From Nitrospinota bacterium (GTDB lineage Bacteria; Nitrospinota; Nitrospinia; Nitrospinales; JACRGP01): 32,349 nt of DNA. Within the stretch, counting starts at the first letter, position 1; every line of letters starts with the position of its first letter. Location of the stretch: contig JACRGP010000171.1 in assembly GCA_016217765.1 (NCBI GenBank), positions 1-32,349 on the forward strand, read 5' to 3'. Positions 16,059-23,049 of this stretch are shown here, piece by piece. Under the pieces are notes generated by a model that saw nothing but the letters and a program-made list of their open reading frames with translations, did no database searches and was not told where the DNA came from. The position numbers and the translations under genes were made by a program.

Positions 16059-18014
16059 ATGAAGAAAGTTCTGGACTGGCTTTTCGGACCGCCGCGCGAC
16101 CCGCTGAACCCCGAAACGCGTCAACACATCGCCCTGGTCGCCTTTTTCGCCTGGGTGGGGTTGGGGGCCGACGGCTTGTCCTCCTCCTGTTACGGTCCGG
16201 AAGAGGCTTTCCTCGCGCTGGGTCCGCACGCCCAGTTGGGCCTGTACCTGGCCCTGGCCACCGCGGTCACCGTCTTTATCATTTCCCTGGGCTACAACCA
16301 GATCATCGCCCTCTTCCCATCGGGCGGCGGCGGTTATAAAGTCGCGTCCAAACTGATCGGCCCGCGCGCCGGCCTGGTCTCCGGGGCCGCGTTGATCGTG
16401 GATTACGTCCTGACCATCGTCATATCCGTCGCCAGCGGCGTGGACGCCCTGTTCAGCCTCCTGCCGGTATCCGCGCAACCGCTGAAACTGGCGGCCGAGG
16501 TCCTCCTGATCCTGACCTTGATACTCCTCAACCTGCGCGGCATGAAGGAGTCGATCGCCGTCCTCATGCCCATCTTCCTTGGTTTCGTGTTCACTCACGG
16601 GTCCCTCATCCTATACGGCATCATGGCCCACTCCGACCGCATCCCGGAACTGGTCCCGGACACGTTGCGCGAAACGTTCCAGCTTTCCGGGCAAATAGGC
16701 TGGTTCTCCGTCGCCGCGCTCCTGTTGCGGGCCTACTCCCTGGGCGGCGGAACTTATACCGGGATAGAAGCGGTCTCCAACAACGTCAACACCCTGGCCG
16801 AACCGCGCGTCAAAACCGGCCGGTTGACGATGGTCTACATGGCCGCTTCCCTGGCCTTCACCGCCGGAGGGATCATCCTGTTATATCTCCTGTGGTCCTC
16901 CTCCCGCGTGGAAGGACAGACTCTGAACGCGGTGACGTTCCGCGCGATCATGCAGGACTGGCAATTGGGCGGTTTCAGCCCCGGACCCGCGATCCTGCCC
17001 GTTGTCATGGCGCTGGAGGGAGGCCTGTTGTTCGTCGCGGCCAACACGGGGTTTCTCGGCGGGCCGGCGGTATTGGCCAATATGGCGGCCGACCAATGGG
17101 CGCCGCACCAGTTCAGCTGCCTTTCCAGCCGCCTCGTCACCCAGAACGGCATCCTGCTGATGGGGGTCGCCGGGCTGGGTATCCTTGTCTGGAGCAACGG
17201 CAAAGTCTCCCTGCTGGTGGTCCTGTACAGCATCAACGTGTTTTTGACCTTTTCCCTGTCCCTGCTGGGGATGTGTATTTACTGGTGGCGCCACCGCCGA
17301 AGGGAGCCGGCCTGGCCCTGGAGGCTGGGCCTCGCCGCATCGGGATTCGCCTTGACCTCGGGAATCCTGACGGTCACCGTGGTCGAGAAATTCATGGAGG
17401 GCGGGTGGGTGACGCTCTCGATCACCAGCGCGCTCATCGTCCTCATGACGCTGATCAAGAGGCACTACAAAAAAACGGGGAAACGCCTCGCCGAGCTAGA
17501 CCGTCTTTTCGCCCAGTTGGAGACGCGGAGGGAAAAGACCCCGCCCAAATTGGACTCCGCGTTGCCGACGGCGGTGTTCATGGTGGGAAAGCACCTGAGC
17601 GCGGGCATGCATTCGCTACTCTGGGTCCAAAGACTCTTTCCGGGTCATTTCAAGAATTTCGTTTTCCTCAACGCGGGAGAGGTGGATAGCAAGAGTTTTG
17701 GCGGGGAGGAAGCCGTGGAGAAATTGAAAAAAGACGTGCAGACGCTGGTCGACTGTTACGTCAATTTCTGCCATAACAACGACCTGGCCGCCGCGTCTTA
17801 CCAGACTTTCGGCACGGACGCCATCGAGCAGTTGACCCTCATGGCCGACAGGATCAAGGAGGATTTCCCCAAAAGCATGTTTTTCGCCACCAAACTCCTA
17901 TTCGCCGAGGAAAACTGGCTCACGCGCCTCCTGCACAACCAGACCGCGATCGTCATGCAACGCCGCCTGCACTTGAAGGGGATGCCCATGGTCATCCTGC
18001 CCATGAAACTTTAA
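16059..18014 (+). CDS. APC-superfamily permease, KimA (YdaO)-like
   Basis: The 651-residue protein starts at the ATG with GGAAG 12 bases upstream; upstream in-frame codons look non-coding. About twelve membrane segments fill residues 25-480. The first part matches the KimA-type K+/H+ symporter layout: GADGLSSSCYGPEEAFLAL in place of the SDALSS-YA-EE motif, FPSGGGGYKVASKLIGPRAG, ALIVDYVLTIVISVASGVDA and LNLRGMKES. A cytoplasmic C-terminal domain of about 150 residues ends with RLLHNQTAIVMQRRLHLKG, also as in that group. It probably imports K+ or an amino acid with protons. In Bacillus, KimA is inhibited by c-di-AMP through this domain; whether that holds here cannot be told. The divergent neighbour gives no clue to substrate. 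Confidence 0.85.
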   Translation: MKKVLDWLFGPPRDPLNPETRQHIALVAFFAWVGLGADGLSSSCYGPEEAFLALGPHAQLGLYLALATAVTVFIISLGYNQIIALFPSGGGGYKVASKLIGPRAGLVSGAALIVDYVLTIVISVASGVDALFSLLPVSAQPLKLAAEVLLILTLILLNLRGMKESIAVLMPIFLGFVFTHGSLILYGIMAHSDRIPELVPDTLRETFQLSGQIGWFSVAALLLRAYSLGGGTYTGIEAVSNNVNTLAEPRVKTGRLTMVYMAASLAFTAGGIILLYLLWSSSRVEGQTLNAVTFRAIMQDWQLGGFSPGPAILPVVMALEGGLLFVAANTGFLGGPAVLANMAADQWAPHQFSCLSSRLVTQNGILLMGVAGLGILVWSNGKVSLLVVLYSINVFLTFSLSLLGMCIYWWRHRRREPAWPWRLGLAASGFALTSGILTVTVVEKFMEGGWVTLSITSALIVLMTLIKRHYKKTGKRLAELDRLFAQLETRREKTPPKLDSALPTAVFMVGKHLSAGMHSLLWVQRLFPGHFKNFVFLNAGEVDSKSFGGEEAVEKLKKDVQTLVDCYVNFCHNNDLAAASYQTFGTDAIEQLTLMADRIKEDFPKSMFFATKLLFAEENWLTRLLHNQTAIVMQRRLHLKGMPMVILPMKL

Positions 18015-18151
18015 CAGGGCGCTGGGAAAATCCCTTTTTGCCCCAAAATCGTCATGCCCGCGACAGCGGGCATCCAGAAAGCCCTTGAAAATACTGCCCG
18101 CTTTCGCGGGCATGACGGCAAAAGACCATAAAATAGTTTTTCAGCGCCCTG
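18015..18151. repeat. Inverted-repeat-ended element, family 2, copy A
   Basis: It begins with the base after the permease stop. The ends CAGGGCGCTG and CAGCGCCCTG are inverted repeats. The interior holds two GTCATGCCCGCG/GCGGGCAT-type hairpins and the marker AAGCCCTTGAAAATACTG. It aligns end to end with the reverse complement of copy B (22910-23049), so the two copies are in opposite orientation. There is no reading frame. GGGAAAATCCCTTTTT at its left end could serve as a terminator for the permease gene. Confidence 0.85.
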
Positions 18152-18209
18152 TGAAACTTGCCGCTCGGATTCCGCCGTCCCCTCTTTCCCCCGTCCCCGC
18201 CAACTCCGC

Positions 18210-18236
18210 TAAAGATTTTTCTTTTTCCGCCGATAT
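18210..18236 (+). promoter_or_regulatory. Sigma-28 (FliA/SigD)-type promoter for the YjfB-like gene
   Basis: TAAAGATT at 18210-18217 is followed after exactly 11 bases by GCCGATAT at 18229-18236. The flagellar sigma-28 consensus is TAAAGTTT-N11-GCCGATAA, so the match is 14 of 16 with the correct spacer. The AGGAGG and ATG of the YjfB-like gene follow 24-35 bases later. No comparable sigma-70 pair overlaps: TATAAG at 18234 has no -35. Confidence 0.72.
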
Positions 18237-18270
18237 AAGACGTGTACGGCGAACTTTGCGAGGAGGGTTT

Positions 18271-18462
18271 ATGGTAAGCGGCGTTTCAGGGTCCGCCCCC
18301 GGTTCCGCGGGGGCCAAGGTATCCTTCGACATTCAAGCGGCAACGGTCAAAAAGGCATTGGACGTGCAAAAACAACAGGGAGACGCGGCGTTGCAACTTT
18401 TGCAATCGGCCACCCAGGCCGAGCCGGGTTCTCCCGGAGGTTTGATCGACACAAAAGCCTGA
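18271..18462 (+). CDS. YjfB-like putative motility protein, 63 residues
   Basis: AGGAGG at 18261-18266 fixes the ATG at 18271. The product has a Ser/Gly/Ala-rich start (SGVSGSAPGSAGAKVSF), a single amphipathic helix (VKKALDVQKQQGDAALQLLQ) and a short Gly/Pro tail ending in GGLIDTKA. This is the layout of the YjfB family (PF14070, annotated only as putative motility protein): LKKALD followed by Q-rich helix and a D-KA end. The sigma-28-type promoter directly upstream supports co-expression with late flagellar or chemotaxis genes. No other motility genes are in the window. Molecular function is unknown for the whole family. Confidence 0.8.
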   Translation: MVSGVSGSAPGSAGAKVSFDIQAATVKKALDVQKQQGDAALQLLQSATQAEPGSPGGLIDTKA

Positions 18463-18521
18463 GAGTTCGTTTCCTGACCGGCAACGCCAACGCGACCGGG
18501 TCGACCGACGTTGGAATGACT

Positions 18522-18582
18522 CTCGCCCCCGACGGGGCCCATGATGGGTTCGAGCGTCGCCCATCGGGCCCCCGGGGGCGAG
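18522..18582. terminator. Large GC-rich hairpin between convergent genes
   Basis: CTCGCCCCCG pairs with CGGGGGCGAG and, further in, GATGGG pairs with CCCATC around an 11-base loop. The bases between are also GC-rich. It lies between the stops of the YjfB-like gene and the VWA-type gene. Only TTTT follows on the plus strand (18588-18591) and no T-tract on the other, so it may stop transcription both ways or simply protect 3' ends. Confidence 0.45.
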
Positions 18583-18624
18583 CCGTGTTTTCAACGGACC
18601 GCGCGCGGTCCGCCGTTCCTCTCC

Positions 18625-20934
18625 TCAACTCAATCCCGACCTTCTCCGGATCCACCAGTCCGCGCACAAGGACATCAGAACCATGCCATAGGACCACCAG
18701 TTGTCCCACAAGCCGATGGTCTTGACGCGGGTCCGCGCGTAAACCGCGGGATTGGGGAAAACGATGCCGGCCATGTCCGTCCGGCCGTCCAGAACTCTGT
18801 AGGACCCGCCTGTCCGCCTGGCGATGGTTTCCAGGAGCCCGGCGTCGATCATGGGCTTTTGAAACTCCGCCGTATCGCTGAACACCCCGAACACGGTTTC
18901 GTTCGACAACGTCTCGCCCGACACGTCGGCCTCCACGCGGACGGAATAATGCCCTTCCAAATCCGCCGGGAACTGAAAACTCCCCTCGCCGTTTTTATCG
19001 GTCTCCAGATTATGCCCCGCGACCTCTTTCCTCCCCTGGACGAAATGGACCGTCGCCCGGGCTTTTCCGTTCGCCAGGGGAGCATAGTTTTCCCGCAGGA
19101 CTTTGATCTTGATCAGGGCTTTTTCGCCGGGCTCATATTTTTCCTTGTCCGTTTCGACGCGCACCAGATGGCTCTCCGGGTCGCCGGTTATCCACGCGAT
19201 GACGTTGTTCCAGAACTTCTGGTAGCTTCTTCCGCTCCCCCCCTTGCCCACGCTCCGGAAGTTCCAGTTCCAGGAGGTATCGGTGGCGAGGGCCATACTC
19301 CGCCCTTTGCCCGCCTTGCCGACGACCAGCAACGGATAGGACGGCCCGCCTTTGGCCCCCGGGTAGCTCGCCAGGACCTGGGAACCCTTTTTCGGCGACA
19401 GCCCGACGTTCATGCCGTTCAGGGGGGGCAGGGATTTCCACGCGCTCCGGCTCGTCTCCTCGTCCTTCTCCAGGCGCAGGATGGGATGGGCGCCGTAGGA
19501 AGGATCGCCCTGAAACTGGAACTCGTCCTGGATAAAGGTTTGAGTTTTTTTCTCCAGCGCCGCCGGGAGGATGTCCTCCACGGGCGTGCCGGCATACCCT
19601 CCGCCCTGGAAGGAAAGGTCCCCGCCGATCATGAGAAAGGCCCCGCCGCCTTCGACGTATTCCTTGATAGCGCTCAGATATTTCTTGTCGATGAACGGTT
19701 CGTATTGGAAGTTTTGGAAAACGATCAGGTCGAAGGAATTGAGATAGTCGGTAAACAACAGATTGGACGGGAACGGGATGAGGCTGAGTTCGCCGGTGGA
19801 GGCCGCCACGTCGTCGGTCAGGGTCCGCAGGATGAAAAACGAGAGCAAGTCCACCTTGGGGTTGTTGATCAGCACCTCCCTGAGGAAACGCGAATCCCAG
19901 GACGGGCGGCCGTTCAGGTGCAATACGCGGATGCGGTCGCGCACGACCCGGACCTGGAAGTCCAGCCGGTTGTTCGTTTCGATCGACTCGCCCGCGAACA
20001 GCGGGACCGACAGGCTGTAAACGTGCCTGCCGACGGGACCGGGGTTGAACTGCAAGTCCGCCTTGTAACGACTTCGATCTCCCCTGACCTCGACGATCTT
20101 GGAGACCAGGACCTGGTTGTCCTTCTTGAGGACCAGCGGAACGTTCTTGTCGCCCAGCGCGGAGGCGTTTATCGAGACCGAGATATTGAACGGCTGTTGC
20201 GCGAAGGCGAATTCGGATTTCTCCACGTATTCGATCCCCAGGTCCTTGAAGTTCTCGTTGGTCCCCGCCTGAAAGGTATGGATGGGGACCTTGAACCGGG
20301 CCAGGGTCTCCGCCAGTTCGGGGGCGATTTCCGGCGGTTCCTGGGCCAGGTCCGCGCCGTCGGAAAGCAGGAGGACCCCCTGGAGCGATTTCCCTTCGTA
20401 ATGGTTCTTCGTCTCCGCCAAGACTTTGTTCAGGTCGGTCGCCGGGGCCAGGGGGCGGTATTTTTCCTCCGCCTCCTTTTCCGATATGGGAACGATCTTG
20501 TCCGAGACGAAAAAAAAGTCCAACTGAAAATCCTTCCTCAACGACTCGAAATAACCGCGATTTTTTTTCAACGCCTCCAGGACGAGGTCCCCCCTCCGCT
20601 TTCCATCGGGGACCGTTTTGATGGACAAGCTCAGGGTATCGTCCAACAAAACCGCGATGGAGTTTTTCAAAAGGTCGCTCTTCCGCATCTCCAGTTCCGG
20701 GCGCAGAAGGACCAGGACGAGCAGTAGACAAGAGAAAACGCGCAACCCCATGAGGAACCCTTTTTTGGCGCGGGACGGGACGCGGGACAAGCTGGACCAG
20801 AAAAACCACAACGCCGGAGGGACGAGAACGGCCAGGACAACCGCCGTCCCATCGAGGCCAAGGGCGGTCCAGCGAACTTCCCAATCGTTGAAGTCCGCGG
20901 AGGACGCCCCCAGAAATTCGAGCAGGGTCTTCAC
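18625..20934 (-). CDS. Membrane protein with VWA-like and GATase1-like domains
   Basis: The GTG at 20934 overlaps the upstream TGA as GTGA and gives 769 residues; longer in-frame starts are shadows of the upstream gene. Two membrane segments come first (AVVLAVLVPPALWFFWSSL and FLMGLRVFSCLLLVLVLL). A VWA-like domain follows (SIAVLLDDTLSLSI; LQGVLLLSDGADLAQ). Then comes an Ig-like part and a class I glutamine-amidotransferase-like domain (IRVLHLNGRPSWDSRFLREV; EYVEGGGAFLMIGGDLSF) with no visible nucleophilic cysteine. A beta-rich region and a final membrane segment close the protein. It is common next to DUF4159 proteins in operons that often also contain MoxR-type ATPases and BatA-like proteins; those are absent here. 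It is probably an inner-membrane scaffold with a large periplasmic part. The function is unknown. Confidence 0.85.
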   Translation of the reverse strand: MKTLLEFLGASSADFNDWEVRWTALGLDGTAVVLAVLVPPALWFFWSSLSRVPSRAKKGFLMGLRVFSCLLLVLVLLRPELEMRKSDLLKNSIAVLLDDTLSLSIKTVPDGKRRGDLVLEALKKNRGYFESLRKDFQLDFFFVSDKIVPISEKEAEEKYRPLAPATDLNKVLAETKNHYEGKSLQGVLLLSDGADLAQEPPEIAPELAETLARFKVPIHTFQAGTNENFKDLGIEYVEKSEFAFAQQPFNISVSINASALGDKNVPLVLKKDNQVLVSKIVEVRGDRSRYKADLQFNPGPVGRHVYSLSVPLFAGESIETNNRLDFQVRVVRDRIRVLHLNGRPSWDSRFLREVLINNPKVDLLSFFILRTLTDDVAASTGELSLIPFPSNLLFTDYLNSFDLIVFQNFQYEPFIDKKYLSAIKEYVEGGGAFLMIGGDLSFQGGGYAGTPVEDILPAALEKKTQTFIQDEFQFQGDPSYGAHPILRLEKDEETSRSAWKSLPPLNGMNVGLSPKKGSQVLASYPGAKGGPSYPLLVVGKAGKGRSMALATDTSWNWNFRSVGKGGSGRSYQKFWNNVIAWITGDPESHLVRVETDKEKYEPGEKALIKIKVLRENYAPLANGKARATVHFVQGRKEVAGHNLETDKNGEGSFQFPADLEGHYSVRVEADVSGETLSNETVFGVFSDTAEFQKPMIDAGLLETIARRTGGSYRVLDGRTDMAGIVFPNPAVYARTRVKTIGLWDNWWSYGMVLMSLCADWWIRRRSGLS

Positions 20935-22909: not shown

Positions 22910-23049
22910 CGGGGCGCTAAAAAACTATTTTATCCTCTTTTGCCGTCATTCCCGTGAAAACGGGAATCCAGTATTTTCAAGGGCTTTCTGGATGCCCGCT
23001 TTCGCGGGCATGACGATTTTAGGGCAAAAAGGGACTTTTTCGGCGCCCC
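22910..23049. repeat. Inverted-repeat-ended element, family 2, copy B, filling the gap between two convergent stops
   Basis: The ends GGGGCGCTAAAAAA and TTTTTTCGGCGCCCC are imperfect inverted repeats. Inside are two hairpins, ATTCCCGTGAAAACGGGAAT and TGCCCGCTTTCGCGGGCA, separated by CAGTATTTTCAAGGGCTTTC. It is the inverted counterpart of copy A. It starts right after one TAA (22907-22909) and ends one base before the other stop (23051-23053). The hairpins and flanking A/T runs make it a plausible two-way terminator. Confidence 0.85.

Follow-up and report, generated by a model that had tools for sequence, protein, structure and literature searches.

A conserved sigma-28-type promoter motif precedes a YjfB-like gene of Nitrospinota at a site apart from flagellar genes

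The FliA (sigma-28) consensus is TAAAGTTT-N11-GCCGATAA, and the exit of FlgM after completion of the hook-basal body frees FliA for the late flagellar genes. YjfB is a conserved small protein that has so far carried a vague label alone, and in Bacillus subtilis its gene was reportedly placed under SigD control by the work of Serizawa et al. in 2004. The main text of PMC5200910, a paper that cites Serizawa et al. 2004, does not name yjfB, and in the accessible part of PMC4326333 the gene is merely an entry in an expression table. In other phyla YjfB belongs, according to the available part of PMC11607428, which calls it small and uncharacterised, to a gene module shared with the flagellar sigma factor, FapA and FlgV. 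A search of the literature on yjfB, on sigma-28 in Nitrospina and on flagellar C-terminal motifs found no paper on the Nitrospinota promoter described here.

The window, by which we mean the whole stretch of 32,349 nucleotides analysed, is one contig (C111) of a Nitrospinota MAG 2.29 Mb in size and 71% complete. On its + strand a -35-like element, TAAAGATT (18210..18217, preceded by a C at 18209), is followed exactly 11 nt later, past the spacer TTTCTTTTTCC, by a -10-like element, GCCGATAT (18229..18236); both are conserved in relatives, and together (18210-18236) they match 14 of the 16 positions of the FliA consensus, with its 11-nt spacing. Downstream on the same strand come a Shine-Dalgarno sequence, AGGAGG (18261..18266), and the ATG at 18271 of a yjfB-like reading frame of 63 aa, the stop codon of which ends at 18462 (18271..18462). 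The original prediction of a FliA-like motif with exact spacer ahead of AGGAGG-ATG was thus borne out when these positions were read again. A search of 17900-18700 for a sigma-70-like promoter gave none. Past the gene, a strong GC-rich hairpin (18520..18583, + strand) possibly marks the 3' end; the fold of 18500-18605 has an energy of -61.5 kcal/mol and a z of -4.49, and a terminator scan did not call the hairpin as an intrinsic terminator on the + strand.

The core TAAAG-N14-GCCGATA has its sole exact match in the window at this site, with four others at two mismatches (1.69 are expected by chance at up to two), and the whole 2.29-Mb genome holds three exact matches, the window site among them. 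When up to two mismatches are allowed, the core is not enriched in its own genome (153 sites, as against 322 for the reversed pattern), so that only near-perfect sites are informative; a lone site proves little, and the proof therefore rests on relatives.

That the reading frame belongs to the YjfB family, as had been proposed, holds up. Against PF14070 it scores 24.6 bits (E 2.7e-5; family cut-off 27 bits), with the C-terminal profile positions covered to 57/57, and an alignment-based search retrieves it at 3.6e-24, the search alignment including the protein itself; relatives that pass the PF14070 cut-off occur in 4 of the 64 genomes of the order. The YjfB label is real, marginal by PF14070 and firm via the relatives. 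NCBIfam gave no match for 10 YjfB members, and tblastn with one relative against plasmids found nothing. An AlphaFold model (mean pLDDT 60) predicts, at low confidence, one helix over residues 14-49 with loose ends; for the first 13 residues, many of them small, no structure is predicted. Variation is least at K-x-A-x-x-x-Q-x-Q, within the helix, and at the C-terminus, which reads GGLIDTKA in the window protein and G-x-x-[IV]-D-x-x-[AVI] in 23 of the 26 proteins checked, a count that leaves out the identical G002, the damaged G026, G041 and G057, plus G022 and G063.

The gene had also been described as lying in a genomic place without flagellar genes, and a Pfam scan of 21 window ORFs indeed found no flagellar family. 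Upstream of yjfB, on the opposite strand, lie yajC, secD and secF, with an amino-acid-permease-like gene in between. SecD and SecF relatives stand within a few kb of yjfB at six of the seven loci examined, so that yjfB retains both its location and its promoter away from the flagellar clusters. In three genomes a NERD-domain (nuclease-related) gene lies just past yjfB on the opposite strand (L104:8407-8967, L101:9936-10472 and L099:9469-10053). The window further contains a palindromic CCCGC-NNN-AGCGGGCATCCAG repeat, seen at 18057-18118 and 22951-23008 (two exact copies and one with three mismatches, where 0.10 are expected), which has the look of a repeat dispersed through the genome.

Among 77 genomes of the phylum, alignment-based search detects YjfB in 32, all of them among the 64 of the order and none among the 13 outside it. 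The original prediction had suggested looking for the same motif before YjfB-like genes elsewhere, and it is found there: of the 30 yjfB loci, out of 32, whose upstream 200 bp were scanned, 22 have a FliA-like site of at least 14/16 and 23 one of at least 13/16, mostly ending 33-40 nt before the ATG, though the genomes are related and the locus counts hence not independent. The best sites score 16 at one locus, 15 at 10, 14 at 11, 13 at one, 12 at four and 10 at three. Two loci fall outside this count: G022 has a 13/16 site, and at G063 the ORF is a fragment and has no site. Random sequences of first order, derived from these upstream regions, reach at least 14 in 1 of 3000 cases and at least 13 in 19 of 3000, and the other 200-bp windows of the same loci reach at least 13 in 0 of 792, these being tiled without overlap so that an edge-spanning site would be missed. 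Over the 25 sites with an 11-nt spacer, information content peaks at CTAAAG and CCGATA, and the spacer is T-rich and variable, with one conserved T. At genus level, a site of 13/16 or more is present in at least one member of nine of the 12 genera with YjfB and in no member of the other three. The seven loci without a good site are G018, G044, G045 and G046 (12/16) and G003, G057 and G040 (10/16). The ORFs of G057 and G040 look damaged or shortened; that of G040, for which a GTG start was chosen, has no site in the 160 bp upstream, and its N-terminus looks lost.

Perfect TAAAGTTT-N11-GCCGATAA sites number 23 in the 64 genomes of the order, as against 0 for the reversed pattern. If spacers of 2-26 nt are allowed, 38 matches result, 23 with 11 nt, 11 with 12 nt and four with other lengths, the reversed pattern then giving a few matches as well. 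Behind the 23 perfect sites stand a long low-complexity protein in 15 cases and a SprA-related protein, FlaG and yjfB in one case each; behind five no convincing ORF was seen. In the window's own genome, sites of 14-16/16 precede genes for a flagellin (C96), FlaG (C1), a SprA-related protein (C17) and the long protein (C155) as well as yjfB. Of eight sites in this genome, three have no gene assigned, namely those on C3 (where a single large ORF is seen), C23 and C41. Three other flagellin-type genes of this genome have no good site (best scores 12, 10 and 10). The SprA-related protein (PF12118; G000:C17, L107) lies behind a 16/16 site at a contig end and has an internal ARNIDGF near its C-terminus.

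The presence of fliA and flagellin genes in this genome, also put forward as a check, was confirmed: a FliA_WhiG match on C106, truncated by the contig, scores 196 bits against a cut-off of 189.6, flagellins are encoded, and FlgM has two matches. Across the order, FliA does not track YjfB, being found in 27 of 32 genomes with YjfB and in 27 of 32 without. Because the presence of YjfB does not follow that of FliA, YjfB is dispensable for flagella as such. FlgM was found in 59 of the 64 genomes, and for that reason the idea of YjfB as an anti-sigma factor in place of FlgM was dropped. One genome that is 98% complete and without a FliA match (G026; L078, L122) has a perfect sigma-28 promoter before a yjfB with a changed reading frame close to its C-terminal end, a state compatible with an assembly error or with a system that has recently decayed.

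The long protein that recurs behind perfect sigma-28 sites across the order is rich in E, Q, R and N and about 210-330 aa in length (G000:C155, i.e. L095/L108, and L113, L115, L118, L121, L123 and L130); two such proteins had no Pfam match. In the window's own genome it is encoded beside FliD and FlgN, and wherever its surroundings were checked, FliD, a flagellin-type gene or both lie nearby. Its C-termini read GQNVDRLI, GQNIDRFI, GQNVDDLI and similar, so that a C-terminal peptide, G-x-N-[IV]-D-x-x-[aliphatic], is common to it and to YjfB. A DNA pattern for this peptide finds 39 places in the order, as against two for the reversed pattern, and these comprise 14 yjfB genes, 18 long proteins and seven others with no sensible ORF or a short one; as the pattern was made after both families had been seen, these counts describe its spread and not its discovery. 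The long proteins of genus g7, different in body from the rest, may form a separate family. In G010 (L140, L164), of a genus without YjfB, two long proteins ending GQNIDRFI are encoded on one contig.

Read together, the motif, its conservation and the presence of FliA argue strongly that the site is a functional FliA promoter and that yjfB is part of the late flagellar regulon, a reading in which we place high confidence. It is very improbable that the site is instead a chance match before a gene of no flagellar relevance. The absence of enrichment at up to two mismatches and the non-flagellar character of the neighbouring genes speak for chance; against it stand a motif that recurs at nearly equal distance in most relatives (at least 14/16 at 22 of 30), the 0 of 792 background windows and the strict 11-12 nt spacing of 34 of the 38 sites, and cross-genome conservation brings this explanation close to refuted. 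Since 22 of 30 loci reach 14/16 whereas no background window among the 792 reaches 13, and since this is so despite the yajC-secDF flanks, yjfB is very probably a late (class-3) flagellar gene that stands alone.

What the gene product does is a separate matter. We lean towards a small late-stage flagellar accessory protein, and two other readings were weighed. Late sigma-28 genes often encode export substrates, and the unstructured N-terminal 13 residues of YjfB, rich in small residues, could pass for the putative disordered Ser/Ala/Gly-rich signal of an exported substrate of flagellar secretion; yet it is the helix and the C-terminus that are conserved, not the N-terminus, and we regard export as unlikely. 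Somewhat less unlikely, to our minds, is a promoter that is real and sigma-28 dependent before a gene without a flagellar role, be it a passenger or part of another programme of motile cells (envelope, secretion or surface growth). No phenotype of YjfB is known, the yajC-secD-secF neighbourhood might hint in this direction, and all eight genomes of genus g7 have FliA and seven have flagellin, while none has YjfB; on the other side, the C-terminal motif of YjfB recurs in a protein whose gene neighbours fliD, and in other phyla, according to the available part of PMC11607428, YjfB lies in a neighbourhood with fliA and fapA.

In the reading that we favour, FliA-RNA polymerase would act at the yjfB promoter once the hook-basal body was finished and FlgM had left, and would start about 7 nt past 18236, the usual sigma-28 geometry pointing to 18243..18244 (+ strand) as the probable start region. 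Translation would then follow from a leader of some 27 nt that includes AGGAGG, yjfB being transcribed alone, as a monocistronic message, late in flagellar assembly. The 63-aa product, a predicted single helix with a conserved C-terminal peptide, may dock through that peptide, a tentative suggestion, to a partner common to YjfB and to the other sigma-28-driven protein, that encoded beside fliD; such a common partner is suggested by the presence of one C-terminal peptide on two dissimilar late flagellar products. In its wider and equally speculative form, several late flagellar proteins of Nitrospinota might carry a docking peptide G-x-N-[IV]-D-x-x-[aliphatic]-COOH that recruits the YjfB helix and the long disordered protein beside fliD to a single partner in the flagellum, be it export gate, chaperone or cap. 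The shared peptide is a new lead and offers a concrete, testable hypothesis on the binding partner of YjfB.

The original prediction had taken a sigma-28 promoter away from flagellar genes as independent support for a motility role. That interpretation is supported, FliA being present and the motif kept, though the promoter shows membership in the regulon and not function. YjfB does not track FliA in the order, and PMC11607428 had already tied YjfB to the flagellar sigma factor by gene neighbourhood, so that the promoter extends this link and is not its first instance. New here are a well-supported Nitrospinota instance of the link between YjfB and sigma-28 and the lead given by the C-terminal peptide. 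Conservation of the promoter where no flagellar genes are nearby indicates that selection holds yjfB in the FliA regulon whatever its neighbours, and this makes a direct test of YjfB worthwhile.

Measured against class-3 FliA promoters, for example those of flagellin genes, the yjfB site is alike in its -35 element, 11-nt spacer and -10 element and in the presence of FliA and FlgM; it differs in its two consensus mismatches and in a product without a known role. Compared with PF14070, the family of the putative motility protein, the window protein shares the length and the C-terminal extent of the profile match, whereas it falls just under the curated cut-off and its gene lies beside yajC-secDF, away from flagellar genes. 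With B. subtilis yjfB, said to be under SigD control, it has a sigma-28-type promoter in common. The flagellar superoperons with FlgV, as the available part of PMC11607428 describes them, feature the same small family, likewise tied to the flagellar sigma factor; there the link is a neighbourhood with fliA and fapA, whereas here it is a promoter at a separate place. The putative sigma-28 promoter of the Nitrospinota yjfB thus fits the earlier link between YjfB and fliA.
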